Source of the DNA: Phycisphaerae bacterium
GTDB lineage: Bacteria; Planctomycetota; Phycisphaerae; UBA1845
DNA length: 42,716 nucleotides
Direction of reading: 5' to 3'
NCBI GenBank assembly: GCA_029260055.1
Contig: JAJDDX010000065.1
Coordinates: forward strand, 1 to 42,716
Positions 6,587-26,434 of the stretch are shown here, piece by piece (the stretch's first letter is position 1; each line of letters begins with the position of its first letter). The translations under genes were made by a program, and so were the position numbers. Under the pieces are notes generated by a model. It was not told the origin of the DNA. It was given only the letters and a program-made list of their open reading frames with translations, and made no database searches.

Positions 6587-6658
6587 GAAGGCTCAGTTCG
6601 GGAGGTTCGGCATGTCAAGTCGGCACCGCCGGGGTCCGGCTTGCGAGTTAGATCGAAT

Positions 6659-6685
6659 CCCGCGCGCCACCTTGGCGCGCGCGGG
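6659..6685 (+). promoter_or_regulatory. GC-rich hairpin in leader of the beta-repeat protein gene
   Basis: CGCGCGCC (6661-6668) and GGCGCGCG (6674-6681) form a perfect 8-bp stem around the loop ACCTT. No T-run follows, so it is not an obvious intrinsic terminator of the permease gene. It lies about 90 nt before the ATG at 6776 and may be an mRNA leader structure; that role is a guess. Confidence 0.35.
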
Positions 6686-6775
6686 CAAGGTGGGCTCGTG
6701 GAGTTCCGTGACCACGGCATATCGAGGGCTCGTCCGCCTGCCCAACGCGGTAGCTGTCTATACGGAGAGCGGCTC

Positions 6776-9700
6776 ATGTCATCGATCAATCAAAGGCGTT
6801 GTTTCGGCAGTGCGTGGATTTGCGCGGCGGCACTCTGCGTGTTCGGCGGGACCGCCGCCCGTGCCGCCAACTACACATGGAACGGATCCGACGGCACCCG
6901 ATGGCATACGCCAGCCAACTGGACGCCGAACGGGGTACCCGACGGCAACACGGACAACGTGCTTTTCGTTGCCGTTCCGTCCTCTTCCTATTCCGTCACG
7001 TACCTTAGCCACATAACGACCAGGAGCCTCGAGGTTCGCGCGGGTACCGTGACATTGGCGGACTCAGATGGATTCCTCACGTATACGCTTGACGCCGGAG
7101 GAATCTTCGCGACGGCCGTCATCGGATCCACCACAGGGCCGTTGACCCAGCTTAAGGTCCAGGGGTACGCGGGCGCCAGCACGTCGTCTATCGATGCGAA
7201 CGGCCCTCTCTTTGTTGCTCTGCCGGCTGGCAGTAACGCAAAACTGGAGATTTGGCATTTCTTCTGGGACAACACTTCGTATGTGCAAATCGGTATAGGC
7301 GGCGCCGGCGAACTGGAACTGCGGGAGCGCGGCCGCCTTTCATGCACGGGCGCGTTGCTCGGTACCGATTCCGCTGCGACAGGCACGGCGACCGTCGGCG
7401 GCTTGAGCAGCTCGTGGACCAACACCGGTCTCCTCAAGATCGGCAACTTCGGCACGGGAACGCTCACGATCAATGCACCCGGCAGCGTGTCCAACGACGG
7501 CGATGGAAGCATCGCGCACTTCGGCGGTTCGATCGGTACGGTTCTGGTGACGGGCCCTGGGGCGGAATGGCAAAACAACGCATCCCTCTACGTCGGTGGC
7601 CACGCCGGCGCTGCGGGCGGCACGGCCACGCTGACCGTCGAAGCGGATGGGGTCACCACGGTGGTGGGCGATCTGATGCTCTACGTCGGCAACACCGTGA
7701 ACCTGGACGGAGGCGTGATCAACGCCGGGTCGCTGAGCGGCGCTGAGGGTGTACTGAACTGGATCGCGGGCACGCTACACATCACCGGCGCGGGCTTGCT
7801 CATCGATCCGAACGAACCGCTGGGAGACAACAGGCAGATCGGCGCCGGGCAGACGCTGTCGGTGGACGGCGTACTGAACGTCGGGGTAAACGCGGGCGCC
7901 ACCTTTACCGTTGCCGAAGGCGTGGGTGTCACGAGTGGTTCGGCTCTGATCGGTAGCGTGAACGGAGGATCGGCCCTTTCGACAGCTCGGGTCACAGGCA
8001 GCGGATCAACGTGGACGATGAGCGGCGATCTGGGGATGCGCAGCGTCAATGGAGCCGACTTGATCGTGGAGAATGGCGGTGTCGTGTCGAACCAGGATGG
8101 TCTGATCGCGTGGCTGGCGGGCACGAGGGCTGACATCGACCTGACGGGTGCCGATACGCAATGGAACAGTAGCGGCTCAGTCTATCTTGGCGGCCAGGCT
8201 GTTTTGCCGGGCGGTTCGGGAGAGCTGCACGTGTCCAACGGCGCTGAGATGCACGTGGCCGGCGATCTTAGAATATGGCACAGCTACTACGCCGACGTCT
8301 CCGGCGGCCTCTTGACCGCGTCCAATCTTGACCTCTACGGTGGTATGAGCGTCGATCCCGGTACGATGGAGATTCTGGGCGGCAACGTGAATATCATCGA
8401 CAGCGATGCGTTCATCGAGGGCACAATCGATATCCAAGGCAGCGCTTTGAACATCACGGGCGGCGGCCAGCTCTACGGGACCATTCTTGGCGACGGGACC
8501 ACGCAGGTCGCATTGCACGATACCGATTCCGCTTGGTCGACGGAGGCCGCGCTGTATGTAGGGACAGCCACGGCCGGTGAGAACCGACTTGCCCTGTTGA
8601 CAGTCGGATCAGGCGCCGTCGTTGACGTGCAGGGCGTGGTCGCGCTGTTGACGCCGGGTGCCCTTGCGCTAAGCGGCGGGTCGATCAACGCGGCGGAGTT
8701 TGACTTGGGCACCGCGGATTTCCAGGGCTTCGGAGCACTCAACGGCCGCGTCTTTGGAGAAGGCGCGGTCATCACTGCGACGGGCCAGTTGATCATGGGA
8801 GGCGCTATGCACCCGTTGGGCTTCAGTCATGACGGCCTGCTGCATGTGGGCGCCAACCCCGTGACGTTGAATTCACTCGGCTTCGCCCGACCCGGCGCAC
8901 TGACCACGATTCAACCAGGCGGCAGGCTGGCGGCGCCAAACGGCCTGGTGCTCGACAACGGAGACTACCTGAGCGGCGCCGGCACGGTCATCGCGCCCAT
9001 CGCGGCGGGCTTCGGCTCGACGATCTTCGTGGGCGAAGGAGAACTCCATATCGGTGACCCAACTGCCACGGACGGCTTCTTCAGCGACGGCGTGCTTGAA
9101 ATCGGCCCCCAAAGTGTCAGGCTTTACGATGCAAATGAGGCCGTGCTCGGTTCCCTGACGACGCTCGGCTTCGGCGACGCTGCCGGATCCCTTGCGGCGG
9201 AATATGGCGCCGTTCTCGAATTCGGCAAGAACCTCGTTGGCCACGGTGTCGTCGATACGCCCGACGATCCGACCACGCCGCTGATCAACAACGGTTCGAT
9301 CGTAGGGGATGCCATCGGGCGCCCAATCGAGTTGACCGGCTACGTCAAAGGCGTGGGCACGATGGATAACGTGACCATCACCGGCACGGATGCACCCGGT
9401 TTCAGTACGGCTCGTGTCTATCGAGGCAACATGTCCTACAGCGGCACAGTTGAAATCGAGATCGGCGGTTTGAATCCCGGCAGCGGATACGATCAGATCA
9501 ACCACAGCGGGACAGCCGGGCTCGGGGGCGAACTTCGGATCGAACTCGTCACCGGATTCGAGCCGCAGGTCGGCCAAGCGTTTACGATCATGACCTACGC
9601 ATCCAGGACCGGCGAGTTTGCCACGGTGGTAGGGCGGGGTGACTGTGGCGGCTCGGTTTTCGAGCTCGAATACGGAGATACGGCGTTGAGCCTGAACGTC

Positions 9701-9892
9701 GTGCCGGCACTGCCGGGCGACGGCGATGTGGACGGCGATGTGGACCTGACGGACTACAGCCGTTTTCGCACCTGCGTGTCCGGGCCGGGCGGGATGATCC
9801 CCACCGACTGTGCGTGCTTCGACGTGGACCACAACTCGAGTGTCGACTTGCGAGACTTCGGCCTGCTCCAGGCGGCCTTCACCGGCGAGTAG
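6776..9892 (+). CDS. large secreted beta-repeat protein with dockerin-like C-terminus
   Basis: The 1038-residue exported protein starts at the ATG at 6776, which has GGAG 8 nt upstream and is followed directly by a signal peptide ending near TAARAA (about residue 26-28). The mature start YTWNGSDGTRWHTPANW is the usual opening of planctomycete proteins built of autotransporter-associated beta-strand repeats. The body (about 40-970) is rich in Gly, Asn and Val, with recurring GxGTLTI-, GGxIN- and LYVGG-type turns, consistent with a long right-handed beta-helix. Residues about 980-1038 hold two Asp-rich loops, GDVDGDVDLTDYSRF and DVDHNSSVDLRDFGLLQ. This pair resembles the dockerin type I or EF-hand-like tail frequent at the end of large planctomycete extracellular proteins. 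No PEP-CTERM anchor or outer-membrane barrel is visible. It is likely a surface or extracellular structural or adhesive protein. Confidence 0.88.
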   Translation: MSSINQRRCFGSAWICAAALCVFGGTAARAANYTWNGSDGTRWHTPANWTPNGVPDGNTDNVLFVAVPSSSYSVTYLSHITTRSLEVRAGTVTLADSDGFLTYTLDAGGIFATAVIGSTTGPLTQLKVQGYAGASTSSIDANGPLFVALPAGSNAKLEIWHFFWDNTSYVQIGIGGAGELELRERGRLSCTGALLGTDSAATGTATVGGLSSSWTNTGLLKIGNFGTGTLTINAPGSVSNDGDGSIAHFGGSIGTVLVTGPGAEWQNNASLYVGGHAGAAGGTATLTVEADGVTTVVGDLMLYVGNTVNLDGGVINAGSLSGAEGVLNWIAGTLHITGAGLLIDPNEPLGDNRQIGAGQTLSVDGVLNVGVNAGATFTVAEGVGVTSGSALIGSVNGGSALSTARVTGSGSTWTMSGDLGMRSVNGADLIVENGGVVSNQDGLIAWLAGTRADIDLTGADTQWNSSGSVYLGGQAVLPGGSGELHVSNGAEMHVAGDLRIWHSYYADVSGGLLTASNLDLYGGMSVDPGTMEILGGNVNIIDSDAFIEGTIDIQGSALNITGGGQLYGTILGDGTTQVALHDTDSAWSTEAALYVGTATAGENRLALLTVGSGAVVDVQGVVALLTPGALALSGGSINAAEFDLGTADFQGFGALNGRVFGEGAVITATGQLIMGGAMHPLGFSHDGLLHVGANPVTLNSLGFARPGALTTIQPGGRLAAPNGLVLDNGDYLSGAGTVIAPIAAGFGSTIFVGEGELHIGDPTATDGFFSDGVLEIGPQSVRLYDANEAVLGSLTTLGFGDAAGSLAAEYGAVLEFGKNLVGHGVVDTPDDPTTPLINNGSIVGDAIGRPIELTGYVKGVGTMDNVTITGTDAPGFSTARVYRGNMSYSGTVEIEIGGLNPGSGYDQINHSGTAGLGGELRIELVTGFEPQVGQAFTIMTYASRTGEFATVVGRGDCGGSVFELEYGDTALSLNVVPALPGDGDVDGDVDLTDYSRFRTCVSGPGGMIPTDCACFDVDHNSSVDLRDFGLLQAAFTGE

Positions 9893-13232: not shown

Positions 13233-13261
13233 TTGTCCGTCGGCGAGACGCGGTCTATCAT
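13233..13261 (+). promoter_or_regulatory. candidate promoter of the envelope cluster
   Basis: TTGTCC (13233-13238) and TATCAT (13256-13261) are separated by 17 nt and match the sigma-70-type consensus at four and five of six positions. Transcription would start near 13268, about 105 nt before the chosen ATG of the first phosphodiesterase gene. Confidence 0.4.
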
Positions 13262-13373: not shown

Positions 13374-15656
13374 ATGAGCGGAGCAGGCGTTTTGCGGTGG
13401 TTTGAGGGTCCAAGGTCACGACGATTCGCGTCCAGGGCGGGGCGGACCCGCCGCCGGGGCCCATCGTTCGCGCTGCTTACGGCGATTGTGATCGTCCTGG
13501 GCCTCGCCGAGCCGGCGGCTGCGTACATCGGGCCCGGGGCGGGCTTCGCGGTGGGCACGACGCTGGCGGCGTTCTTCGTCGCCGTGCTGTCTTCGACGGT
13601 ATCGCTCTTCCTGTGGCCGATCCGATGGCTCGTTCGGTCCATCCGAGGCCGGCGGGCGCACGCCAAGGCTCGCGTCAAACGGGTCGTGATCCTGGGCCTG
13701 GACGGGATGGAGCCCACGCTTGCGGACCGCTTCATGGCGGAGGGCAAGCTGCCTCACTTCAGCCGGCTGGCCAACGAAGGCACCTACGTTCGACTCGGCA
13801 CGACCGCACCACCGCTATCTCCGGTAGCGTGGTCGTCGTTTCTGACCGGGTGCAACCCCGGCAAGCACCGCATTTTCGACTTCCTCACGTGTGATCGACG
13901 GCAGTATATTCCTCAGCTCTCGTCGGTGAGCATCCGGGGGTCCGCCAGGACACTGAAGGTCGGCAAGTACCGGATTCCGATCGGAAAACCCGACGTTCGC
14001 CTTCTGCGAAAGGGCAAGCCGTTCTGGAATGTCCTCGGCGAGCATGGGATCTTCTCGAACATCATCCGCGTACCGATTACCTTCCCGCCGGAGCCGTTCC
14101 ACGGCGTGCTGCTATCGGCGATGTGTGTGCCCGACCTGCGCGGTAGCCAGGGGACGTTCTCCTTCTACACGACACGAGGCGAAGGCGAAGCCGAGTATAT
14201 CGGCGGCGAGCAACTGCGATTCGAACGCAACGGCAAAGCGCTACGCTCTCACCTGATCGGTCCGCCAAACAGCCTGGTGCAGGATGCGCCCCCGATCCAC
14301 TGTCCGTTCGAGTTGACGGTGACCGGTCGGGGCGTGGCGACCCTGCGCGTTTGCGGCGAGACGGTCCAACTCGAGCAAGGGGTCTACACGCCCTGGGTCC
14401 AGGTCGCGTTCAAGGCAGCTCCGGGCATCAAGGTCAAGGGTATCTGCGAGTTCCTACTGTTGCGCACCGAGCCGGAAGTCGAGTTGTATGTGACGCCGAT
14501 TCAGATCGATCCGACCAAGCCGGCGCTGCCGATTTCGCATTCGGCTGCGTTTTCGACGTACCTGGCGAAGGCGCACGGCCTCTACGCGACGCTCGGACTC
14601 GCGGAGGACACGTGGGCTCTCAACGCGCGGATACTAGACGACGAAGCGTTTCTGCATCAATGCAACGAGGCGGACGCCGAACGGGAGGCGATGTTCTTCG
14701 ACGCCCTCGACAAGGTTCGCCGCGGACTGTGCGTCTGCGTGTTCGACGGGACGGACCGCATCCAGCACATGTTCTGGCGCTACATCGACCCGGATCATCC
14801 CGCGCGCGACGGGCAGGGGGGGCGAGAATGTCGCGATGCGATCGAGAAGCACTATATCCAGATGGACGACCTCGTTCGCCGTACGATGGAAGCCTGCGAC
14901 GGCGAAGATGACGTGCTGATGGTGATCTCCGACCACGGCTTCTGCTCCTTTCGGCGCGGGATCGACCTGAACGTCTGGCTCGAGCAGAACGGGTACCTCA
15001 CCCTCAAGCCCGACGGACGTGGAAAGAAGTACCTCGCCGGAGTGGATTGGTCGAAGACGCAGGCGTTTGCCCTGGGGCTAGCGGGCATCTTCCTCAACGT
15101 TCGCGGCCGCGAGGCGGAGGGCATCGTTGACCCGAAGGACGCCGATGCGCTGCGCGAGGAGATTTGTGCCAAGCTAGCGACTCTCCGCGACGACGAGTCC
15201 GACGAGCCGGCGATCAATCGTGCTTTCAATGCTCACTCCATTTATCGCGGGCCTTACAAGGGTGACGGCCCGGACATCATCATCGGGTACCATCGAGGCT
15301 ACCGCGTGAGTTGGGAGGCGGCCGTCGGCGAACCTACCGATCAACTGTTCCACGATAACGACAAGGCTTGGAGTGGGGATCACTGCATCGACCCGAAGCT
15401 CATCCCGGGTGTGCTCTTTAGCAACCGCAAGATCAAGGCCAAGAACCCGCGCCTGCTTGATCTCGCCTCGACCGTGCTCGAGTTGTTCGGTGTGAAGGTG
15501 CCCGGCCATATGGACAGCAGACCGATGGCGGTAGCTGACGTGGACGGCCACTTCCCCGGTGGACCGGAATCGCCGGGCAGTGCCGAGCGGGCTGATGATA
15601 CCGATGCCGGGGAGTGTGTCGCGGGGGCGGAGCGTGTCGGAGGTGGGCAGGGATGA
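13374..15656 (+). CDS. membrane-anchored type I phosphodiesterase / alkaline-phosphatase-superfamily protein
   Basis: The 760-residue protein has an N-terminal hydrophobic segment (about 31-50) ending in AYIGPGAGF and a second helix (about 58-82), then a catalytic domain from about residue 100. Metal and catalytic positions of the alkaline phosphatase superfamily can be placed: D110 (LGLDG), S149 in PPLSPVAW as nucleophile candidate, D461/H465 (FDGTDRIQHMFW), D520/H521 (ISDHGFCSFRR) and H670 (WSGDHC). The type I phosphodiesterase/nucleotide pyrophosphatase family hydrolyses or transfers phospho-groups with two metal ions. Here the active site probably faces the periplasm. The ATG at 13374 has no strong ribosome site; it was chosen because the membrane segment follows it. 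It overlaps the next, paralogous gene by 4 nt (ATGA). The substrate is unknown. Confidence 0.85.
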   Translation: MSGAGVLRWFEGPRSRRFASRAGRTRRRGPSFALLTAIVIVLGLAEPAAAYIGPGAGFAVGTTLAAFFVAVLSSTVSLFLWPIRWLVRSIRGRRAHAKARVKRVVILGLDGMEPTLADRFMAEGKLPHFSRLANEGTYVRLGTTAPPLSPVAWSSFLTGCNPGKHRIFDFLTCDRRQYIPQLSSVSIRGSARTLKVGKYRIPIGKPDVRLLRKGKPFWNVLGEHGIFSNIIRVPITFPPEPFHGVLLSAMCVPDLRGSQGTFSFYTTRGEGEAEYIGGEQLRFERNGKALRSHLIGPPNSLVQDAPPIHCPFELTVTGRGVATLRVCGETVQLEQGVYTPWVQVAFKAAPGIKVKGICEFLLLRTEPEVELYVTPIQIDPTKPALPISHSAAFSTYLAKAHGLYATLGLAEDTWALNARILDDEAFLHQCNEADAEREAMFFDALDKVRRGLCVCVFDGTDRIQHMFWRYIDPDHPARDGQGGRECRDAIEKHYIQMDDLVRRTMEACDGEDDVLMVISDHGFCSFRRGIDLNVWLEQNGYLTLKPDGRGKKYLAGVDWSKTQAFALGLAGIFLNVRGREAEGIVDPKDADALREEICAKLATLRDDESDEPAINRAFNAHSIYRGPYKGDGPDIIIGYHRGYRVSWEAAVGEPTDQLFHDNDKAWSGDHCIDPKLIPGVLFSNRKIKAKNPRLLDLASTVLELFGVKVPGHMDSRPMAVADVDGHFPGGPESPGSAERADDTDAGECVAGAERVGGGQG

Positions 15657-17689
15657 GACATCTTCGCGTCATCACGCCGGTCTGCCTGGCTGCCGCGGCG
15701 ATTGCGGTGGCCCTGTCGCAGTTATCGTGCGAGAAGAAGAGCGACGGCCTCAGCCGTGTCGTCGTGATCGGTATGGACGGCCTGGACCCGCGGCTCTGCG
15801 AGCGCCTGATGGATCAGGGGGCACTGCCTCATCTGGCAGCGCTTCGGGACAAAGGAGGCTACAAGCCGCTGGGCACCACCACGCCTCCGCAAAGCCCGGT
15901 CGCCTGGGCGAGCTTCATCACCGGCGCGAACCCGGGCGTACACGGAATCTTCGACTTCATCCATCGTGATCCATCCAAGCAGTACGCTCCATACTACGCG
16001 GCGGCCGAAACAGTCGACGGCGAGGGTGGATGGGCTGTCGGCGAGCATGAGATTCCTATCACGCTCTGGCCGTTCCAGCACACGCCCACGCAGACCTTGC
16101 TGCGCCGCCACGGAACGCCGTTCTGGGATTACCTGGATGAGGCCGGCGTGCCGACGTGGTTCTACGACATCCCGGCCAACTACCCGCCGAGCCCGTCGAA
16201 GCATGGACATCTGTGCTGCCTCAGCGGCATGGGCGTGCCCGATCTTCTCGGCAGCTACGGCACGTACCAGCTCTTCTCCGAGGATACCTACGTCGAGAAA
16301 CGGGATGAAGGCGGCTTGCGCAAGCCGCTCATCTTCAAGGATGACCGGGCGGGCGGTGTGCTGACCGGTCCGAAGAACACGAGTTTGGTCAAGCCGGTCG
16401 ACACGCACGTTGGTTTCGACATATACCGGCATCCGACGGAGCAGACGGCACGCATCGAGGTACAGGGCAAAACGATCGTCCTGAAGGCCGGCGAGTGGAG
16501 TGATTGGTGCAAGGTGTCGTTCACGATGAAGATGCCGTCGTTCCTGCCGAGTGTCCACGTGAGCGGCATCTGCCGGTTCTATCTTCAGGAGGTACGCCCG
16601 AACTTCCGCCTCTACGTCACGCCGTTGAACATCGACCCTTCGGACCCGGGCGACCAGCGGATCACCGAGCCCGCGGCGTTTGTCGGCAAGCTCTCCGACG
16701 CACTCGGCCTTTTCTACACGACCGGTTTCCAGGAAGACCACAAGGCGCTCTCCGCCGGAACGTTCGTGGATGAGGAGTACCGGGAGCAGGCGGACTACGT
16801 GCTTTCGGAACGCCTCGAACTGCTGGACTACGCGATCGAGAACTACGACGACGGGCTGCTGTTCTTCTACTTCTCGAGCACCGACCTGCAGGCGCACATG
16901 TTCTGGTGGGATGGCGACGAGCCGCATCCGACTCGGTCCAGGCAGTCCGCAGCCAAGTGCCACGGCACGATCGAGGCTCTATACAAACGCATGGACGACA
17001 TCGTCGGCGATGTGCTCGAGCGCTTCGGTGACGATGCAACTATCCTGGTCATGTCCGATCACGGATTCTGCAACTTCCGCCGTCAGTTCAGCCTCAACGC
17101 ATGGCTACGGAACAACGGCTACATCCATCCGCCGGAGTGCGAGTCTCTGTTGCTCGACAGGACCAACCCGGTCGATTGGAGCCGAACGCAGGCGTACGGG
17201 CTGGGGATAAACGGGTTGTATCTGAACTTGAAGGGCCGCGAGCGCGACGGGAGCGTTGATCCTGCACAGCGCGACCGAGTTCTGGATGAGCTTACCGAGA
17301 AGCTGCTGGCTGTTCGCGATCCTGTCAGCGGAGAGCCGGTCGTCGCTCGCGTTGACCGGGCGGATCGAATCTACTCGGGTCCGTCAGCCTCCGTGGCGCC
17401 GGACCTGATCGTCGGGTACCATCGCGGATACCGTGCCTCGTGGGCGACGGCGCTAGGCGACATGAGCGAAGAAGAGATGACGGACAACGATTCGGCGTGG
17501 AGCGCGGATCACTGCGTGGCGGCCGAGTTGGTGCCGGGCGTGATCTTCAGCAACCGCCCGGTGCTCAGAGCGAGTCCGTCACTGATCGATCTCGCGCCGA
17601 CCATCCTTCAGGAGTTCGGCGTGGAGCCACCCGAGACGATGGTGGGCGGGAGTCTCTTCGAGACCGAGGCTGTAACGACGCGCGACTGA
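15653..17689 (+). CDS. lipoprotein-like type I phosphodiesterase, paralogue of the preceding gene
   Basis: The 678-residue protein starts at the ATG at 15653, which overlaps the previous stop (ATGA) and has a strong GGAGGTGG just upstream. The signal segment ends in LSQLSC, so Cys-26 may be lipidated. The catalytic domain follows at once. It has D42 (IGMDGLD), S81 in PPQSPVAWASFITG, a STDLQAHMFWW metal motif, VMSDHGFCNFRR, and the terminal AWSADHCVAAELVPGVIFSNR. Long blocks are shared with the preceding protein (SPVAW-SF-TG-NPG-H-IFDF, and the whole SDHGFC region), so the two genes look like a tandem duplication that diverged in the N-terminal anchor. The enzyme class is phospho-ester hydrolase or phospho-group transferase on the outer face of the inner membrane or in the periplasm. 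The substrate is unknown. Confidence 0.87.
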   Translation: MRHLRVITPVCLAAAAIAVALSQLSCEKKSDGLSRVVVIGMDGLDPRLCERLMDQGALPHLAALRDKGGYKPLGTTTPPQSPVAWASFITGANPGVHGIFDFIHRDPSKQYAPYYAAAETVDGEGGWAVGEHEIPITLWPFQHTPTQTLLRRHGTPFWDYLDEAGVPTWFYDIPANYPPSPSKHGHLCCLSGMGVPDLLGSYGTYQLFSEDTYVEKRDEGGLRKPLIFKDDRAGGVLTGPKNTSLVKPVDTHVGFDIYRHPTEQTARIEVQGKTIVLKAGEWSDWCKVSFTMKMPSFLPSVHVSGICRFYLQEVRPNFRLYVTPLNIDPSDPGDQRITEPAAFVGKLSDALGLFYTTGFQEDHKALSAGTFVDEEYREQADYVLSERLELLDYAIENYDDGLLFFYFSSTDLQAHMFWWDGDEPHPTRSRQSAAKCHGTIEALYKRMDDIVGDVLERFGDDATILVMSDHGFCNFRRQFSLNAWLRNNGYIHPPECESLLLDRTNPVDWSRTQAYGLGINGLYLNLKGRERDGSVDPAQRDRVLDELTEKLLAVRDPVSGEPVVARVDRADRIYSGPSASVAPDLIVGYHRGYRASWATALGDMSEEEMTDNDSAWSADHCVAAELVPGVIFSNRPVLRASPSLIDLAPTILQEFGVEPPETMVGGSLFETEAVTTRD

Positions 17690-17705
17690 CTGGGGATAGC
17701 CACAC

Positions 17706-17891
17706 ATGGCGAAGATCAAGATTGATTCGAATCTGTACCAGCGGATCAAGAAGCTCTCAGAGACGGCGGGTTACTCGTCGCCCGAGGAGTTCGTCATCTA
17801 CCTGATCGAGAAGGAGCTGGCGGTGCTGGAGTCGGCCGAGGACGAGAAGCAGGTCATCGAGCGCCTGCGCGGCCTGGGCTACCTCGAGTAA
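17706..17891 (+). CDS. small ribbon-helix-helix-like protein with LRGLGYLE tail
   Basis: This is a 61-residue protein starting 16 nt after the phosphodiesterase stop, with GGGGAT as ribosome site. Residues 1-40 (IKIDSNLYQRIKKLSETAGY then SSPEEFVIYLIEKEL) resemble the strand and two helices of a ribbon-helix-helix fold of the CopG/Arc kind. Residues 44-61 are an acidic helix ending ERLRGLGYLE. The LxxLGY ending is the same motif that closes the catalytic domain of many sulfatase and phosphodiesterase family proteins, including the enzyme encoded at 18941 (AALATLGYVS). It could be a DNA-binding regulator of the cluster or a small partner protein that docks through the shared tail. Sequence alone does not decide between these. 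Confidence 0.8.
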   Translation: MAKIKIDSNLYQRIKKLSETAGYSSPEEFVIYLIEKELAVLESAEDEKQVIERLRGLGYLE

Positions 17892-17943
17892 CGTGTGATC
17901 GGGTGCAGGCCGCACGCGCGGGTGCTGCGCATGGGGATCGACT

Positions 17944-18888
17944 TTGGACGTCGTTGACTCGTTGCTGATCTTTGGCGGTGATGCGGTGCGCTGGGTATGC
18001 GCTGCGCTGGCGACACTCTTCGGCTCGGTGTGGGGCGGCCTGGACGCGCTACTGAATCCGCTGCTTTCGCCGCTCCTGGCGGTACTGAATCCCGTCTGCA
18101 CCGCGATCGGCGATGTGACGTACGCGATTGTCCGAACGCTTCCGGTGTGGGTTGGCCTGACGCTGCTCTCGGTGCTCGCCGGAATCGCGATGCTCGTCAT
18201 CTTTCGATATATGTCGAACCAAACCGGCATCACCAGGGCCAAGGACCAGATCAGCGCCAATCTTCTGGCCATCAAGCTTTACAGGGACGAGCTTCGAGTC
18301 ATGTTTCGGTCGCAGTGGGGCGTGCTGTGCGGGGTGGCGAAGCTTCAGCGATATGTCCTGACGCCGGTGCTCATCATGCTTCTTCCGATGATGCTGGGGC
18401 TTGCGCAGATGGGTATGCGCCACCAGTGGCGTCCTCTGCAGCCGGGCGAACGGACGTTGATGAAGGTGCGGTTCGACGCGGAGCACGCCGTGGCCGGGCA
18501 GATAAAACTCGAGCCCAGCCCGGGGCTGCACGTGGAGGTGGGGCCCGTGCCCGGCGGCGGCGAACTCGTTTGGCGTATCCGTGGCAACGAGCCGGGCCGC
18601 CACACGCTCAGGTTCCGTGTCGACGGAACGGTTGTGGAAAAGGAACTCGTCGTGGGCGACTCGTTCGAACGCGTCAGTGCCGTGCGACCAGGCGCGGCGT
18701 GGGCTTCGCAACTGCTCCACCCGGGTGAGTCGCGTTTGCCCGCGGGCTCGCCCGTCGCGTCGATCGAGATACTCTACCCGGCCGTCGATTCGTGGGTCTA
18801 TGGTGCCGACTACTGGGTGCTCTACTTCTTCGTGGTCTCGATGGCCTCGGCCCTGTTGCTCAAGCCACTCTTCAGGGTTACGTTCTGA
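17944..18888 (+). CDS. YidC/EMC3-like membrane protein with periplasmic beta domain
   Basis: This is a 314-residue integral membrane protein. A hydrophobic or amphipathic N-terminal part (about 5-60) is followed by a strong helix at about 68-90. A basic helical hairpin-like segment comes next (about 95-130, including AKDQISANLLAIKLYRDELR), then a helix at about 137-160, a soluble beta-rich region at about 165-275, and a last helix at about 288-310. The order of helix, charged cytoplasmic coiled segment and helix is that of the Oxa1/YidC/EMC3/DUF106 superfamily of membrane insertases, but the match is by pattern only. The extra beta domain with PGLHVEVGPVPGGGELVWRI is Ig-like in style. The start is a TTG at 17944 with GGGGAT upstream. 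It lies between phosphodiesterase-like and sulfatase-like genes of the same cluster, suggesting a shared envelope task. Confidence 0.72.
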   Translation: MDVVDSLLIFGGDAVRWVCAALATLFGSVWGGLDALLNPLLSPLLAVLNPVCTAIGDVTYAIVRTLPVWVGLTLLSVLAGIAMLVIFRYMSNQTGITRAKDQISANLLAIKLYRDELRVMFRSQWGVLCGVAKLQRYVLTPVLIMLLPMMLGLAQMGMRHQWRPLQPGERTLMKVRFDAEHAVAGQIKLEPSPGLHVEVGPVPGGGELVWRIRGNEPGRHTLRFRVDGTVVEKELVVGDSFERVSAVRPGAAWASQLLHPGESRLPAGSPVASIEILYPAVDSWVYGADYWVLYFFVVSMASALLLKPLFRVTF

Positions 18889-18940
18889 CCGGTCTGGCAC
18901 GAACGGAGTGGTTGCCGGACGCGATCGCGTCCGAGCATCG

Positions 18941-20827
18941 ATGAGCGATCCGGGCAAGCGGAATCGATCTTCCATGAGCAAGAAACGGCGAGCAAAAGCG
19001 GCTGGTCAGTCCAAGTCCGGGCCCGCGCCCAAGCCGAAGCGGAGAGTTCGGTGGGGCATCGTATTGACTGCGCTGGTAGTCGTCGGCGGGTCGGTCACGT
19101 TCGGTCTGTGGTATGGCCTGCGAAAGCCGCAAGCCCCCCCCGACATTCTCTTGATCAGCATCGACACGTTGCGCGCGGATCGACTCGGTTGCTACGGCTA
19201 CCGCGCGGGGCGCACGCCGACGATCGATCGAATGGCGGCCGAGTCGGCCGTGTTTGATGCTGTAGTCGCGCCCTTGCCGGTGACACTCCCATCGCACGCC
19301 TCGATGCTGACCGGGTTGATTCCGCCGCGTCACGGTGTGCGCGTGAACGAGGCCCACCGGCTGGCGGACCGCCACGTCACGCTCGCGGAGGCCTTGAAGG
19401 CGGACGGCTACCAGACGGGGGCGTTTGTGGGTGCCCTGCCAATGGCCAAAGCCGGCGGCCTTGACCAGGGGTTCAGTGTCTATGATGACGAGTTGTCATC
19501 CAAGAGGCTCGAGGGCCGTGCCGCTGTCGCGCGCCAGGAGCGTTACGCCGAGGAGGTCCTCGCCGTCGCACAGCGGTGGCTACGCTCGACGGACCCGACA
19601 CGCCCGGTCTTCGCCTTCATACACCTGTACGATCCGCACGCGCCGTACGAGAAGCCTGCGCCGGGTACCGGCGCTCCCGGCTACGACGGCGAAGTGGCAC
19701 ACGTTGACAAGGAACTCGGTTCATTCTTCTCGACTCTGAAGCGGGATGCTCGCTGGTCGAACCTGCTGACGGTTGTGACGTCGGACCACGGCGAAGGCCT
19801 GGGCGAGCATAGTGAGAAGAGTCATGGCGTCTTCGTGTACGAATCGACGTTACGCGTTCCGTTGATCGCGCATTGGCCGGGCTCGATTTCGCCGCGCCGT
19901 GTGGCCCAGCCGGTCGGCCTGATCGATATCCCACCGACGCTCCTCGAACTGGCAGCAGCGCCGCCGCTTCCGGGCATCGATGGTAAGTCGCTCTCGCCCC
20001 TTCTGAAGGGCGCCGTGCAGGAAGATCGGTCGTTCTACTTCGAGAGCCTACTGGGTGAGATCAAGTTCGGATGGGCGCCGCTGCGCGGTATGCGAGACGG
20101 AGACCTGAAGTACATCGCGGCACCGAGGCCCGAGCTATACGATCTCGCCTCTGATCCGCACGAGTTGACGAACCTCCATGCCCAGCGCCCGCGCGACGCG
20201 GCTCGGCTTGCCGCCTACCTCGATGCTGTGGGGCGGGGAACTCGAGAGACGAGCGAGGTCGATGAGGAGACGCTCGCGGCGCTGGCCACGCTCGGCTACG
20301 TATCGGCGCCGCCTGTCGACACGGCGAATCTGGCGGACCGACCAGACCCCAAGGACCTCATCGAGATCTACGATCGTTATCAGGACGCGCACATGGTGTT
20401 TGCGGCCGGGCGGACCGACGAAGCGCTCACGTTGATGGAATCCCTCGAGGCGTCCTTCGAGCACAGTCCGCTCTTTTACTATCGGTGGGGCAACTGGGCT
20501 GCCGCCGGCGAGCATTGGGATCGGGCCGCGGGTTGTTTTCAGAAGAGCCTCACGCTGGACGCGCTCAACCAGAGCGCGCACATGAACTTGGCGGCCGCCT
20601 ACCTCAACCTCGGCGAAGCCGAGAAGAGCCTCGAACAGTTCAAGGTGCTGCTGAAGCTCAATCCCGATCACGTCAAAGCGCATCTCTATTCGGGGCTCAT
20701 CTACGCGGATTCGCTGGGGCATCCTCAGGGGGCTGTTTCTCACTGGACGCGCTTCCTGGAACTGGCGCCCAACCATCCACAGGCCGACACGGTCCGCAAG
20801 AGTCTGGCCGCCGCCCAGGCGCCTTGA
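18941..20827 (+). CDS. membrane-anchored sulfatase-like hydrolase/transferase with C-terminal TPR domain
   Basis: The 628-residue protein has a basic cytoplasmic start, one membrane helix (about 38-58) and a sulfatase-fold domain (about 65-440) facing the periplasm. LLISIDTLRADRLGCYGY (D75) and TSDHGEGLGEHSEKSHG are the metal-binding motifs. The nucleophile position is T115 in PVTLPSHASMLTG. The Cys/Ser-x-Pro-x-Arg site needed for formylglycine in true sulfatases is therefore absent, and a phospho-group hydrolase or transferase is more likely than a sulfatase. The domain ends with LAALATLGYVS (about 446-456). Residues 470-628 contain TPR repeats (SAHMNLAAAYLNLGEAEKSL and VKAHLYSGLIYADSLG). 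The start could also be the ATG at 18974, 11 codons in; ribosome sites are weak for both. Confidence 0.87.
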   Translation: MSDPGKRNRSSMSKKRRAKAAGQSKSGPAPKPKRRVRWGIVLTALVVVGGSVTFGLWYGLRKPQAPPDILLISIDTLRADRLGCYGYRAGRTPTIDRMAAESAVFDAVVAPLPVTLPSHASMLTGLIPPRHGVRVNEAHRLADRHVTLAEALKADGYQTGAFVGALPMAKAGGLDQGFSVYDDELSSKRLEGRAAVARQERYAEEVLAVAQRWLRSTDPTRPVFAFIHLYDPHAPYEKPAPGTGAPGYDGEVAHVDKELGSFFSTLKRDARWSNLLTVVTSDHGEGLGEHSEKSHGVFVYESTLRVPLIAHWPGSISPRRVAQPVGLIDIPPTLLELAAAPPLPGIDGKSLSPLLKGAVQEDRSFYFESLLGEIKFGWAPLRGMRDGDLKYIAAPRPELYDLASDPHELTNLHAQRPRDAARLAAYLDAVGRGTRETSEVDEETLAALATLGYVSAPPVDTANLADRPDPKDLIEIYDRYQDAHMVFAAGRTDEALTLMESLEASFEHSPLFYYRWGNWAAAGEHWDRAAGCFQKSLTLDALNQSAHMNLAAAYLNLGEAEKSLEQFKVLLKLNPDHVKAHLYSGLIYADSLGHPQGAVSHWTRFLELAPNHPQADTVRKSLAAAQAP

Positions 20828-20920
20828 CGACTGTCCAGGGCAGCCTGGATTGTCCGATCACGCCTCCGCGCCTATCATCCGGACGGCTTACCAACGTCGT
20901 TTTTCGAAGGGTCGTGCGTT

Positions 20921-22882
20921 ATGCTTATTCCCAAGTCGATCAAGAAGTGGATCGCGGTGTTTCGCGGTGAGGTCGCGCCGGTCCTCATCCTTCTGTCGGC
21001 GATGCTCGGGTTCTGGTTCGGCTTTACGCCCGGATGGTACGGAATCCACGTTGCGCTGCTCGTCGTCGCGCTGATCCTGAACGTGCACTTCGGCATCTAC
21101 CTGATCTTCGCCGGGATCGGCAAGGCGCTCTGCTTTGCAGCCGCGCCCGTGTTGTATCACACAGGTGCATGGACGCAGCACCATCTCGGCTGGCTGCTGG
21201 ACCTGCTGGCGGCGTTTCCGGTACTCGGTATCACCGATACGTCACGCTATGCGGTGGCCGGTTCACTCCTGCTCGGCCCCGCGATCGGCCTCGTGCTCGG
21301 GCTACTGCTTGCCAAGAGCGTGCAAGGGTTTCGACAGGCGTGGTTACGGCTCGAGGAAGGCTCCGAAGCGTTCAAGAAATGGCAAAGCAAGCGTTGGGTC
21401 GGGCTGCTGTCGCGCGTACTTGTTGGCAAGGGAACAGCCGACACGCGGTCCGTGCTCGAGCGACGACCGAAGCTGATCCGTATTCCGGGTGTGGTCGTAG
21501 CGGTTGTGGTTTGCGCTTTGGCTTTGGGCGCCGCGTCGATGGTGAAGGGCGATGCGCTCATCGGCCGCACCGAGAGCTCGCTGAGCGACGCCAACGGTGC
21601 CGAGGTCAACCTCGCCAGCCTCGACCTCGCGATCCTCGGCGGGCGTGTGTCGGCCGGGGGAATCCAGGCCACCGATCCTCAGCGACCCACGCACAACCGA
21701 CTCGCGGTCGACGAGCTCACCGCGGATGTCAGCCTTTGGCAACTCCTCCGCGGCCGCGTGGTGATGGATGAGGTCAAGCTGTCGAACGTGACGTTCGAAG
21801 GAAAGCGCGCCGCGGCGGGTGAGGTCCCGGCCTCGGGCGGTTCAACCGATCAGGCGGAAAGCGCCGAGGCTGCCGAGGCGACTCAATTCGATCTGCCACT
21901 CGGCGACTATGCCGAGTTGGAGTCCTACTTCCAAAACGCCGAGCAGGTTCGCGACTACCTCGGCAAGATCCGAGAGTGGCTGCCGAGCGGGAAGGACGAA
22001 GCTGCGTCCGAGCCTGAGTCCGTTCCGGAGCACTACCTCGAATACCTCAGTGCTGCAGCGCGGCGACCTCCCACACCACGTCTGCTGATCCGCAAGCTCG
22101 TACTCGACGACGTGGACTTGTCGATCGACGAACTCGGCATGAGCCGCATCGAGTGCCGCAACCTGAGCGATGCGCCGAGCGGAGTGAGCGACCCCGTTGT
22201 CATCGGGATCGAGTCCAAGCAGCGGAAGGCGTCGGTGAAGCTCAGTTGCGATTACGGTCGCGGCGGCGGAGCGGCGACGGCTGACGCCTCGTTTGAGGAC
22301 GTCGATCTTGCGGAACTACAGAAGAAGATGAAGGGGAACAACCCGATCAGTTTCCGTGGCGGCACGGCTTCGGCGAAGATCAGCGGGACCTTGACCAGAG
22401 AGACGATCGACCTGGCGATCGCGGTGACGTTGAAGGATATGAAGGCCGACGCTTCCGGCGGTGTGTGCGGTCTCGATTCGCAGGTTACGTCGGAGGCGAT
22501 GAAGGTGCTCAGTAACCTGGAGACGACGATCCGGCTCGTCGGGCCGACGGAGAGTCCGCGGCTGGTGTTCGACAGCTCCGCACTCGGAGCCTCCTTGCGT
22601 GATGCGCTCGTCGCGGCGGGGAAGGCGGAGCTCGCTCGCCGCGCCGATGAACTCTTGCAGGGCAAGCTCTCGGGTGATGTGCCGGGTCTCGAGGGTGGCC
22701 TGAAGACTCCTTCGCTGGAAGGCGGGAAAGACGCACTCGGCGGTCTTCTGGGTGACGAGAAGAAGGACGACCCAGACAAAGAGGCGACGGAGAAGGACAA
22801 AGGCGAGGACGTTAAGAGTCAAGCCGAAGATGCGTTGGGCGGCCTGTTCGGCGGCAAGAAGAAGGACAAGAAGGACGACTGA
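20921..22882 (+). CDS. TIGR03546-like membrane domain fused to AsmA-like (TIGR03545-like) domain
   Basis: The 653-residue protein has two parts. Residues 1-150 are a compact multi-helix membrane domain starting MLIPKSIKKW, with GFWFGFTPGWYGIHVALL and ILNVHFGIYLIF, which I recognise as like TIGR03546. After a linker and a membrane helix (about 190-210), residues 210-600 resemble TIGR03545, an AsmA-related family. Signature blocks are GAEVNLASLDLAILGGRVS, GGIQATDPQRPTHNRLAVDE and LLRGRVVMDEVKLSNVTFEG. In other bacteria, as I recall, the two families are adjacent separate genes; here they are one reading frame. The C-terminus is a Lys/Asp-rich tail with two DALGGLxG repeats. AsmA-like proteins bridge the periplasm and are implicated in phospholipid transport to the outer membrane, which fits the neighbouring envelope enzymes. 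The ATG has GAAGGG 10 nt upstream. Confidence 0.8.
   Translation: MLIPKSIKKWIAVFRGEVAPVLILLSAMLGFWFGFTPGWYGIHVALLVVALILNVHFGIYLIFAGIGKALCFAAAPVLYHTGAWTQHHLGWLLDLLAAFPVLGITDTSRYAVAGSLLLGPAIGLVLGLLLAKSVQGFRQAWLRLEEGSEAFKKWQSKRWVGLLSRVLVGKGTADTRSVLERRPKLIRIPGVVVAVVVCALALGAASMVKGDALIGRTESSLSDANGAEVNLASLDLAILGGRVSAGGIQATDPQRPTHNRLAVDELTADVSLWQLLRGRVVMDEVKLSNVTFEGKRAAAGEVPASGGSTDQAESAEAAEATQFDLPLGDYAELESYFQNAEQVRDYLGKIREWLPSGKDEAASEPESVPEHYLEYLSAAARRPPTPRLLIRKLVLDDVDLSIDELGMSRIECRNLSDAPSGVSDPVVIGIESKQRKASVKLSCDYGRGGGAATADASFEDVDLAELQKKMKGNNPISFRGGTASAKISGTLTRETIDLAIAVTLKDMKADASGGVCGLDSQVTSEAMKVLSNLETTIRLVGPTESPRLVFDSSALGASLRDALVAAGKAELARRADELLQGKLSGDVPGLEGGLKTPSLEGGKDALGGLLGDEKKDDPDKEATEKDKGEDVKSQAEDALGGLFGGKKKDKKDD
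20923..20946 (+). repeat. 5' end of the TIGR03546-like gene, near-copy also at 13308-13331
   Basis: This stretch codes for residues 1-9 of the TIGR03546/TIGR03545-like protein and matches 13308-13331, upstream of the first gene of the same cluster, at 22 of 24 positions. Confidence 0.45.
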
Positions 22883-22918: not shown

Positions 22919-24154
22919 TCAGATCTGCGTATCTGCGGCGGCCGGGCTGCCGGCGGGCTTCGTGACGGCGCGGACACTCGAACGCAGGGCTTCCGCTTGC
23001 TTGATGGTGCCACCAGAGCTTTCTTCGTCCTTCCATTCCTCCCTGATCGCGACGATCCGATCCGTTGATTCGAGGAAGACGCTGACGATGTCCGGGTCCA
23101 GTTGGGTACCGGAGGCTTCCGCAATGAGCGCGCAGCACGTGTTGTGCGGGAACGGCGGCTTGTAGGGTCGTTGGCTTGCCATGGCGTCATAAGCGTCCGC
23201 GACCGCGACGATACGTGCTGGTAGCGGGATCTGCGCGCCGCTCAGGCCTTCCGGATACCCGGTTCCGTCCCAGTGTTCGTGATGGTAGGCGGCGATGTCC
23301 GCGGCCATCCGCAAGAGCGGCGTGTCGCGTTCCTGGAGGATGTTCCGACCGATGAGCGGATGCTCCCGGTAGGCTTCCAGTTCGGCCGCGGACAGCGGCT
23401 TGAGGATGGCAACGCCCATGGCACAATGTTGCTTCATGAAGCTCCACTCGTGGTAGTCGAGGCTTCCCGGCTTTTGGAGAATGCTGTCCGGGATCCCGAT
23501 CTTACCCAGATCGTGCATCGGGCTCGTCAGGGAGATCAGCTCAACGATTTCCGGATCCAAGTTCACCCCGCAAGCGAGGATGCGGCTGTAGAGGCCGACC
23601 CGTACGACGTGCTTTCCGGTTTCGTTGTCCTTGTACTCAGCGGCCTTCGCCAGGCGCCTGATGATCTGCATGCGCGTTTCCACCAACTCGGCGTTGGCCG
23701 CCTCTAGTTCGGCCGTTCTTCTCGATACCTCCTCCTCCAGATGGTTCTGGTAACGTTCGTTCTCGCGAATGAGTCGCGCGCGCTCCAGGGCTTTCTCTAT
23801 GGCGTGGACCAGGATCGCGAGATCCTCGATCGGCTTTACCAGGTAGTCCCAGGCGCCTCGATGTAGCGCCTCAATCGCGTCTGCGATGAGCCCCGCTCCG
23901 GACACGACGATCATGGGCGTGCGCGGTGACTCTCGTGAGACAATCTCGAGCACCCCGAGCCCGTCCAGTTCCGGCATCCGCAGATCAGCGAGGATGATGT
24001 CCGGGCGCTGGTGACGGAATGCTTCCACACCGGCACGACCGTTCTCGGCCTCCACCACGGCGTAGCCGCGGTCTGCGAGGTAGGCCGCCATGCTCTGCCG
24101 CACCATCGGCTCGTCCTCGATGGTCAGTACGGTTGTCGGTCGCTCTTCACGCAA
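22919..24154 (-). CDS. response regulator with HD-GYP output domain
   Basis: The 411-residue protein has a receiver domain at 8-120 with phospho-acceptor D57 (IILADLRMPELDG) and the conserved K107 in LVKP. A coiled-coil linker (about 122-160) leads to an HD-GYP domain (about 160-355) with H214-D215 in MHDLGKIGIPD and the GTGYP form of the GYP motif at 297-301. The family degrades cyclic di-GMP in the cytoplasm, so this is the likely c-di-GMP-lowering output of the chemosensory operon. Between KQHCAMGVAIL and the HHEHWDG motif there is an extra segment with a second copy of the same element (YREHPLIGRNIL). The start is a TTG at 24154 with AAGGAG upstream, inside the end of the preceding receiver gene (8-nt overlap). 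It is the last gene of the operon. Confidence 0.92.
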   Translation of the reverse strand: MREERPTTVLTIEDEPMVRQSMAAYLADRGYAVVEAENGRAGVEAFRHQRPDIILADLRMPELDGLGVLEIVSRESPRTPMIVVSGAGLIADAIEALHRGAWDYLVKPIEDLAILVHAIEKALERARLIRENERYQNHLEEEVSRRTAELEAANAELVETRMQIIRRLAKAAEYKDNETGKHVVRVGLYSRILACGVNLDPEIVELISLTSPMHDLGKIGIPDSILQKPGSLDYHEWSFMKQHCAMGVAILKPLSAAELEAYREHPLIGRNILQERDTPLLRMAADIAAYHHEHWDGTGYPEGLSGAQIPLPARIVAVADAYDAMASQRPYKPPFPHNTCCALIAEASGTQLDPDIVSVFLESTDRIVAIREEWKDEESSGGTIKQAEALRSSVRAVTKPAGSPAAADTQI

Positions 24155-24545
24155 GGGCTGCTCCTTCGGTGGCGAGGCGGTTGACTGCTTCGAGAAGTAC
24201 CTTCAAGTCGGGAAGCGGTTTCTGAAAGACGTAGTCCGTGCCCGCGCCGATCTCGGCGAGCGCGGGCGGCAGGCGGTACGCGACCGATCCCGTGTAAACG
24301 ATGAACTTGAGCGACGGGAGCATCTCATGGGCGGCGAGGATCAAGCCGTTTCCGTCCATGCCCGGGAGCCGGATGTCGACGATGGCCACGTCCACGGGCT
24401 CGGTTTCGAGCATCTCGATTGCCTCCTCGGCGCTTTCCGCGGAGACGACCGTACACCCACGATCTTCGAGGTAATTGACCAGGCTGCAGCGGATGCTCGA
24501 CTCATCGTCGACAATCAACACGCGAACGGCGGACGCTGACATCAT
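24147..24545 (-). CDS. single-domain response regulator (receiver only)
   Basis: The 132-residue protein is one receiver domain with no output. The acidic pocket is VDDES (about 12-16), the phospho-acceptor lies in VAIVDIRLPGMDG (D57), the Thr switch is in IVYTG, and the Lys is in FQKPLP (about 110). Stand-alone receivers act as phosphate shuttles or sinks, or bind a target directly. The first ATG at 24545 has a very strong GGGGAGG upstream and overlaps the stop of the upstream kinase gene by 4 nt (ATGA). The end overlaps the HD-GYP gene by 8 nt. It is probably phosphorylated by one of the three kinases of the operon; which one cannot be read from sequence. Confidence 0.9.
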   Translation of the reverse strand: MMSASAVRVLIVDDESSIRCSLVNYLEDRGCTVVSAESAEEAIEMLETEPVDVAIVDIRLPGMDGNGLILAAHEMLPSLKFIVYTGSVAYRLPPALAEIGAGTDYVFQKPLPDLKVLLEAVNRLATEGAALA

Positions 24546-26434
24546 GACCTCCCCTCTAGGGGCAACCGGATGATGAACCGTGCACCGTGTCCGGGGCTGG
24601 ATGTGACGGTCATCGTGCCACCGTGGTTTTCGGTGACGATGTAGTAGGAGACTGAAAGGCCCAGGCCCGCGCCTTTACCGACTTCCCTCGTGGTGAAGAA
24701 GGGCTCGAAAACTCGCCTGCGAATATCCTCGCCCATGCCCGGCCCGTTGTCCTCGACCTCGATCCGGGCAGTCTGTTGATCGCGCGCCGTGCGAAGAATG
24801 AACCGCGGGGTCTTGGGGGGAGCATCCTCTTCGCACATGGCCTGCGCGCCGTTCTTGAGCAAGTTTAGGATCACTTGCTGCAGCTTCATCCTCTCACAGT
24901 TGATCTTCGGCAGCGTCGAGTCGTAGTCGCGAACGATCTCGATTCGCCTGAAGAGATTGCTCTGTTTCAATTCATAATCGGTGGCTGCGAGTTCGACCGT
25001 CTTGTCGAGTAGTTCACCTAGGTCGTGGTACGCGAACTGGGTGTTGCTCTTCCGGCTGAAGTCGAGCATGTTCTGGACGATCTTGGCGGCGCGCCTCCCC
25101 GACTTCCGCACGGACTCGAGCATGCTGGTGATCTCTCGCCGCTCGAAGTAGGCAGACAGCAAGTCCATGTCGAGCCCGAGCTCACGCGCGACCTCGAGGT
25201 TCATCGGAAGATCGGTGCACGCGCGGTCCAGGACAACCTGGGCGTTCTGCATGATTCCGGCCAGTGGGTTGTTGATCTCGTGCGCCATGCCGGCGGCGAG
25301 CCCGCCGACGGACATCATTTTCTCAGACTGGATCATCATGTCCTCGAGACGCACACGCTCGGTCACGTCGTCGACGCGGACGACCGCGCCCTCGATCCCG
25401 TCGCCGACCAGCGGATAGACCATCACGTCGTGGTATCGCTTCTCACGATCCACGTAGCTTTCCGTTCGCCTGGCGCTTTGGGCCCGCCGTTCCCGGAGTG
25501 CGTCCTTGACCTGGACGAGGTGGGGGCTGACCGTCGGGAAGACCTTCTCGATGGGTTGCCCTTCGGCATGTGTCGTGGGGACGCTCAGGCACTCTTCGGC
25601 GTGCCGGTTCCAATGCGTGACACATCCCCGGCCGTCCACCGCGACGAGCGTCGACGGCATCGAGTCGATCATGTGCTCGAGGAGATGGCGCAGGTCCTGC
25701 GTCACTTCGGGACGCCTTCGCTCACTTAGTTCTCGCTGCAGATCATCGACGGCGTTTGTCAGACTTGCCGTCCGTTCCGCGACGCGTGCCTCTAATGTGT
25801 TCTGTGCTTCTTGCAGCTCGTCTTCCACTCGTCTGCGGTCACACTCCATGCTGAGGCCGGCCAGGTCGCTTTCGATGATCTCCTTGAACTCCGTGAGCAG
25901 CTCGACATACTCGATGGCATCGGGGTTCTCGCGGGAGTCGAGGATGCAGATCGTCCCGAAGACTGATTGGTCGGGCCATTGCACGGGGAATCCCAAGTAG
26001 AAGATCATACCCAGGTCGATGTCCGGGTTGTGACTCCACTGTGGATCCTTCATGGCGTGCGGCACGAGCAACTGGGCGCGTCGAGCCATGACGGTTTCGC
26101 AGTACAGCCCGGTACCCAAATCGGCTCGCTCGCCTTTGTCGTAGGGATTGCCCTCAGTGCGACTCGACACAAAGACCTCGATTTGAGGCGGGACGACCCT
26201 CATGATCAGGCCCGCGGGGACTCTTACGGTTCGTGCCATCAAATCCACGACGCGCTGCCATTTCGCCACGACTTCGGCCGGCACGTGGGGTCTGGCCAGC
26301 TGGCCGCCGCTTTGTGGCTCTGGGGCGGGGGGGGGAGCCTCGATCGCGGTGCCGTGCTCGTGCGCACTCTCACGCTGCCCCTCCGAATCGGAGCCGTGCG
26401 CGCTTGGCGTTTCGGACTCGATGTGAACCGTCAT
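24542..26434 (-). CDS. GAF-PAS sensor histidine kinase
   Basis: The 630-residue cytoplasmic kinase has no membrane helix. A Pro/Glu-rich start (1-50) precedes a GAF domain (about 55-195; [22 protein letters not shown]), a coiled coil (195-245), a PAS domain (about 248-355; [15 protein letters not shown] and [10 protein letters not shown]), the phospho-acceptor H385 in [11 protein letters not shown], and an HATPase domain with the N-box [10 protein letters not shown] (about 524-533), [10 protein letters not shown] (561-570) and GLGLSVSYY. The dimerisation domain has an insert of about 35 residues between the His helix and the [23 protein letters not shown] helix. From the PAS domain onward it is a close paralogue of the kinase encoded upstream at 26431-28113. 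It overlaps that gene by 4 nt (ATGA) and the downstream receiver gene by 4 nt. The signal sensed by the GAF domain is unknown. Confidence 0.93.

Follow-up and report, generated by a model that had tools for sequence, protein, structure and literature searches.

A conserved four-gene operon, AP1-AP2-RHH-EMC, is present in the window analysed here, a stretch of 42,716 nucleotides from a Phycisphaerae bacterium. It encodes two alkaline-phosphatase (AP)-superfamily enzymes, an RHH-like small protein and an EMC3-like membrane protein. Because the operon is linked to genes for ATP sulfurylase, APS kinase and a PAPS-type sulfotransferase, we propose, with a probability of roughly one half, that its products could act as the membrane module of a hitherto uncharacterised system for envelope sulfation, for which we infer both the reaction and the substrate. 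Sulfation of some envelope component appears to be the most likely reading, ranking above those based on phosphate chemistry, nucleotide clean-up or an assembly-factor role.

Conservation and limits of the operon

An earlier note on this DNA had described six tightly packed plus-strand genes, and all six ORFs were found in the window at 13374-22882 (Table 1), with a GC3 of 0.75-0.90 in each. The three alkaline-phosphatase-superfamily enzymes claimed among them were recovered as well, AP1 and AP2 through PF01663 and the fifth gene through PF00884. AP1 and AP2 overlap by 4 bp, the AP1 stop lying at 15656 and the AP2 ATG at 15653. As for the promoter suggested ahead of the first gene, one match does exist, against 0.1 expected in shuffled sequences, which is weak evidence and leaves it as a candidate. 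By eye, minus-strand genes resembling an HD-GYP response regulator (22919-24154) and a histidine kinase (24542-26434) are convergent with the six-gene cluster, and a long secreted repeat protein encoded at 6641-9892 ends in a GDGDVDGDVDLTDY-type calcium-binding, dockerin-like motif.

Table 1. Positions of the operon genes and of the features flanking them in the window
Feature	Position	Strand	Description
Sigma-70-like promoter match	13233..13261	+	Candidate only; TTGTCC-17-TATCAT, 9/12, single match
AP1	13374..15656	+	COG3379-like alkaline-phosphatase-superfamily enzyme, NPP-like fold
AP2	15653..17689	+	AP1-paralogous AP-superfamily enzyme, export signal, Ser nucleophile
RHH-like small protein, 61 aa	17706..17891	+	LxGLGY(I/L) C-terminal tail
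EMC	17944..18888	+	EMC3/DUF106-like Oxa1-superfamily membrane protein with Ig/filamin-like periplasmic domain
Sulfatase-fold enzyme with C-terminal TPR repeats	18941..20827	+	Membrane-anchored; ATG at 18941; occasional neighbour
TIGR03546-like + TIGR03545-like fusion	20921..22882	+	653 residues; outside conserved operon

The four genes of the segment 13374-18888 were found together in 82 loci, where they lie on one strand in every case (82/82) and keep the exact order AP1-AP2-RHH-EMC in 76; in Acidobacteriaceae-type loci the order is AP2-RHH-EMC-AP1. Within the phylum, the membrane protein and the 61-aa protein were each used to query 149 genomes; each search was positive in 25 genomes, of which 23 were common to both. 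A wider scan with an AP1 alignment against one genome per species gave at least 589 stretches, and the best 80 loci were used. These best 80 carry about 12 phylum labels (Planctomycetota, Acidobacteriota, Thermodesulfobacteriota, Myxococcota, Pseudomonadota, Nitrospirota, Gemmatimonadota, Bacteroidota, Omnitrophota, Poribacteria, Aminicenantota and Eiseniibacteriota), but most of the loci come from MAGs, and a phylum represented by one member only could reflect a binning error. In the AP1 tree the window groups with Phycisphaerae MAGs, at no more than 71% identity, and the sequences cluster by phylum, imperfectly, a pattern that is consistent with old age and some transfer.

The earlier note had suggested, as a check on its proposal, to see whether the two phosphodiesterase-like genes, the gene for the 61-residue protein and the EMC3-like gene are linked in other genomes. 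They are, and the idea of an uncharacterised envelope-linked system gains support from this result. Plasmid-borne copies of the EMC3-like gene were searched for and none was found, and the open literature, searched for COG3379 and for AP-superfamily enzymes with PAPS or sulfotransferases, yielded no description of such an operon. Two loci (L059 and L061) have additional single-domain PF01663 genes upstream of the operon, which gives four AP-fold genes per locus.

The remaining two genes stand outside the operon. Relatives of the sulfatase-TPR gene were present near 23 of 109 loci, making it an occasional neighbour and not a core member, and no homologue of the fusion gene was found beside any of the more than 100 other operon-bearing loci examined. 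Taken with the collinearity described above, these results delimit the unit to four genes; all six genes as a single unit were considered and rejected, conservation being confined to the first four.

The product of the fifth gene combines a PF00884 domain (E=5e-44) with TPR repeats. Its formylglycine position is occupied by Thr (V-T-L-P-S-H), as had been correctly read before, and not by the Cys or Ser of formylglycine sulfatases; Thr was also present in the 6 neighbouring homologues where the sulfatase motif was found. Envelope proteins of the LapC/YejM/PbgA and EptA types likewise have an AP-superfamily domain at the inner membrane, but only the sulfatase-TPR gene is weakly similar to them (NCBIfam), far below the curated cut-offs and with another architecture.

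The product of 20921-22882 matches the NCBIfam families TIGR03545 and TIGR03546 with E-values of 7.6e-32 and 1.3e-10, both below the curated cut-offs, and judged by these matches it is a clear but divergent TIGR03546 + TIGR03545 homologue, with the TIGR03546-like part at its N-terminus. Fusions of this uncharacterised pair were noted earlier (PMC4035852); elsewhere the two are separate adjoining genes. In the former description of an AsmA-like fusion, the fusion stands and the AsmA label is weakly supported, since PF05170 (AsmA) scores 15.3 bits against a curated cut-off of 29.8, with the TIGR03545-like part being weakly AsmA/DUF748-like. The export step attributed to this protein is not supported, given that no homologue adjoins any other operon copy examined. 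The AsmA family was also tried as an anchor and rejected: the window's own genome gave no AsmA-family match, and the fusion is not linked to the operon elsewhere.

Proteins encoded by the operon

AP1 and AP2 match PF01663 with 102.6 bits (E=4e-29) and 127.5 bits (E=1e-36), respectively, above the curated cut-off of 23. The AP1 model (mean pLDDT 82) matched ENPP5, ENPP6, a bacterial NPP and phosphonoacetate hydrolase (Foldseek E ~1e-8), aligning with ENPP5 over 343 residues at Z 26.8 and an rmsd of 3.9 Å; Z values of the AP1 model, the one used in these comparisons, ranged from 23.6 to 26.8 against NPPs, PhnA, PafA and related enzymes. Six metal ligands assigned by motif spacing (D110, D461, H465, D520, H521 and H670) are invariant in 22 sequences, and alignment places Ser149 at the nucleophile position, so that AP1, with a full ligand set and this Ser, looks catalytically intact. 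For AP2 the assignment is based on the nucleophile position and the PF01663 match, ligands and fold having been assessed in AP1. Ser occupies the nucleophile position in 98 of 101 AP1 and in 92 of 95 AP2 sequences, the remaining three AP2 sequences being unscorable. NPPs use Thr as nucleophile, and by this mark neither AP1 nor AP2 is an NPP proper. AP1 shares with the NPP/phosphonoacetate hydrolase branch the fold, the bimetal ligand set and the PF01663 match, but the two enzymes differ from that branch by their Ser and by large inserted regions.

Upstream of its catalytic domain AP1 has the motif Y(I/V)GPGAG (YIGPGAG in the window), followed by one TM helix with a mean hydropathy of 2.4 and by an R/K-rich stretch whose net charge has a median of +8 and a minimum of +4 in 97 sequences. 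With this arrangement in front of it, the catalytic domain of AP1 should be cytosolic. The N-terminus of AP2 carries a lipobox, a Tat-like or a Sec-like signal in all scorable copies, being lipoprotein-like in the window, so AP2 should be outside, in the periplasm. The two enzymes are therefore predicted to be paralogues on opposite faces of the inner membrane; this predicted pairing of operon paralogues, together with the YIGPGAG-TM anchor and the putatively cytosolic domain of AP1, further sets them apart from the NPP branch.

A Pfam search with the membrane protein of the window alone gave no match, PF01956 included. When a profile (A2) was compared with the PDB, it matched the archaeal DUF106 protein MJ0480 (5c8j) with E=3.3e-9 in a region that comprises the first two TM helices and the hairpin, with a second, insignificant stretch on the last TM, and PF01956 (EMC3_TMCO1) was matched by 10 of 81 relatives (best E=3.8e-7). 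The AlphaFold model of EMC (mean pLDDT 94.3; helices at 68-90, 93-112, 117-160 and 290-305) has a core of three TM helices, the first two of which are joined by a cytosolic coiled-coil hairpin, and the Ig/filamin-like domain sits between TM2 and TM3 of this core. A fold search with the model listed Ig-like domains and short helical matches, the Ig domain dominating the result, and neither EMC3 nor YidC was in that list. EMC has no PF02096 match, and the only such match in the genome is an ordinary YidC on another contig (C175). In 14 control genomes the EMC3 Pfam model found matches only in archaea.

From these data EMC is an Oxa1-superfamily relative closest to DUF106/EMC3, and not a member of PF01956; of the YidC/EMC3-like label given to it before, the EMC3-like part holds at the profile level. 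It shares with archaeal DUF106, EMC3 and TMCO1 the three-TM core, the cytosolic helical hairpin and the profile match to MJ0480, but differs from them in being bacterial, in its Ig/filamin-like insert and in being encoded with AP-superfamily enzymes. With YidC (PF02096) it shares the superfamily and the predicted core architecture, but it has three and not five core TMs, besides lacking the PF02096 match, and its periplasmic domain is elsewhere; in E. coli YidC the P1 domain precedes the core. A lipid-crossing role of the EMC3-like protein is conjectural, though thinkable because Oxa1-superfamily insertases scramble lipids in vitro (PMC10491306).

The 61-aa protein matched RHH profiles below threshold only (DUF7557 and NikR). 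It ends in the C-terminal LxGLGY(I/L/M)x, present in 90 of 91 homologues, the single exception being cut off. Related tails are found at the end of a second RHH-like protein (RHH2) and of a distinct class of APS kinases, in which the C-terminal motif reads (R/K)L..LGY(L/I); such kinases occur in L198-L203 and L205. The window's own genome encodes one as well, on contig C334 (L085:9622-10467), with the tail ...EEEMIRNRLKDLGYL (LGYL) and next to the gene of a DASS anion symporter; the second APS kinase encoded there is without the tail. Of 9 regions examined with tailed APS kinases, 7 have a single-domain AP-superfamily gene adjoining the kinase gene, in some cases together with ATP sulfurylase and RHH2. 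Comparison of the tail with an adjacent AP gene over 30 short loci gave p=0.057, which makes the link between APS-kinase tail and AP genes a suggestive one. Several of the neighbouring sulfatase-fold enzymes carry a similar LGY(L/V) motif behind their catalytic domain. From the shared motif we infer that the RHH-like protein may dock sulfate-activating enzymes through its tail.

Association with sulfate activation and sulfotransfer

About 11 loci of the phylum have genes for ATP sulfurylase, APS kinase or both immediately upstream of AP1 and in its orientation. These genes belong to a set, complete or partial, that also comprises RHH2 and a small AP-fold protein. An AP-fold protein of ~330 aa is encoded between ATP sulfurylase and APS kinase at L065:13730-14722 and in four other regions (L063, L071, L073 and L074); it has no obvious signal peptide, bears Thr in place of the formylglycine precursor and is distant from STM4013-family hydrolases.

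A P-loop sulfotransferase (Sulfotransfer_3/1) neighbours 24 of 109 loci, often directly after EMC, and the five scanned copies of one such neighbour (X204) all reach the cut-off of at least one of Sulfotransfer_3 and Sulfotransfer_1. The loci bearing a sulfotransferase come from Planctomycetaceae, Desulfobacterota-like, Acidobacteriota, Scalindua and Bacteroidota-labelled genomes. The wide separation of these lineages on the AP1 tree makes a single inherited accident an unlikely source of the linkage.

Co-occurrence at the genome level points in the same direction. Within the phylum a sulfotransferase was found in 9 of 25 operon-positive and in 6 of 124 operon-negative genomes (p=7e-5), and APS kinase in 25 of 25 and 70 of 124, respectively (p=5e-6), both tests ignoring kinship and genome completeness. 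The excess of APS kinase is partly expected, given that this enzyme also serves ordinary sulfur assimilation. Over several phyla, 35 of 50 operon-positive genomes have a sulfotransferase, the operon-negative comparison being that of Planctomycetota only (6/124). About half of the loci, the window included, have no sulfate gene up to a distance of 10 kb. The genome from which the window comes does have genes for ATP sulfurylase and a sulfotransferase at a site remote from the operon, less than 3 kb apart (267-1454 and 2935-3528 of L197, contig C297).

ATP sulfurylase, APS kinase and P-loop sulfotransferase, which recur beside the operon and occur in the window's genome, are also the enzymes of PAPS-dependent bacterial sulfation pathways. 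In contrast, the papers searched describe no pathway that includes paired AP enzymes, a protein like EMC3, a small RHH-like protein or APS kinases with an LGYL tail. Archaeal N-glycan sulfation was considered as a described relative and set aside, no AP-enzyme or EMC3-like partner being found in the portion of the source consulted (PMC13308652).

Proposed mechanism and alternative readings

In an envelope-sulfation system of this kind, ATP sulfurylase and APS kinase would make PAPS, and either the sulfotransferase or AP1, via a Ser-sulfo/phospho intermediate, would load the group onto a membrane-bound carrier or acceptor at the cytosolic face. The grooved EMC3-like protein could then provide the modified lipid or peptide head group with a path through the bilayer, and at the outer face AP2 would move, trim or remove the group. 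Through its LGYI tail the RHH-like protein might dock the sulfate-activating enzymes, some of them similarly tailed, to the membrane module; alternatively, it might regulate them.

The earlier note had placed its emphasis on phosphate. On that reading AP1 and AP2 would be phosphodiesterases or phosphotransferases that trim or transfer the phospho-head groups borne by a lipid or glycan of the envelope, and sulfation would be an independent process that often shares the locus. Membership in PF01663 agrees with it, as do the nearest folds, which are phosphodiesterases and phosphonate hydrolases (ENPP4/5/6, bacterial NPP and PhnA). The AP superfamily includes phosphoethanolamine transferases, and NPP-fold enzymes mostly hydrolyse phosphodiesters, which counts against sulfation. 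However, no phosphate-specific gene recurs in the operon neighbourhoods, unlike ATP sulfurylase, APS kinase and sulfotransferase, which do so in separate deep lineages, and the sulfotransferase co-occurs with the operon. Conserved neighbours and co-occurrence thus point to sulfate activation and sulfotransfer instead of phosphate, and we regard the phosphate version as unlikely.

It is more doubtful still that AP1 in the cytosol and AP2 outside hydrolyse PAP, PAPS or APS as a guard against a toxic sulfotransferase by-product. NPPs do cleave nucleotide anhydrides, and both the NPP-like fold of AP1 and the linkage to PAPS-making and PAPS-using genes would suit this function, but the exported paralogue, the EMC3-like protein and the retention of four genes would be left unexplained. 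We give least credence to the EMC3-like protein being a dedicated insertase that anchors AP1 or AP2 and their partners, with sulfation carried out by the enzymes alone. Such a role would fit its Oxa1-superfamily insertase core, the presence of its gene always beside those of both enzymes and the ordinary YidC found elsewhere in the genome; against it, AP1 has a single ordinary signal/TM and AP2 a Sec, Tat or lipoprotein signal, and neither normally needs a private insertase.

Envelope sulfation thus remains our preferred reading. A bolder proposal, which we advance only tentatively and consider improbable, is a transmembrane sulfuryl/phosphoryl relay, in which the Ser-nucleophile AP paralogues would load and unload a lipid carrier crossing an EMC3-type groove and the RHH-like adaptor would tether an LGYL-tailed APS kinase. 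If this relay were true, AP-superfamily enzymes would act as sulfotransferases and an EMC3-type protein would export small groups in bacteria.

Since the small protein and one class of APS kinases have an LGYL-type tail in common, a specific and easily testable interaction between them is predicted, and EMC places a relative of EMC3-type insertases in bacteria, where usually only YidC is considered. The operon has been kept over about 12 phyla while being nearly unannotated, and it is probably basic to envelope biology in Planctomycetota, Acidobacteriota and their relatives. If a sulfated envelope component is indeed its product, the operon would provide a genetic handle on sulfation in lineages that are better known as degraders of sulfated glycans.
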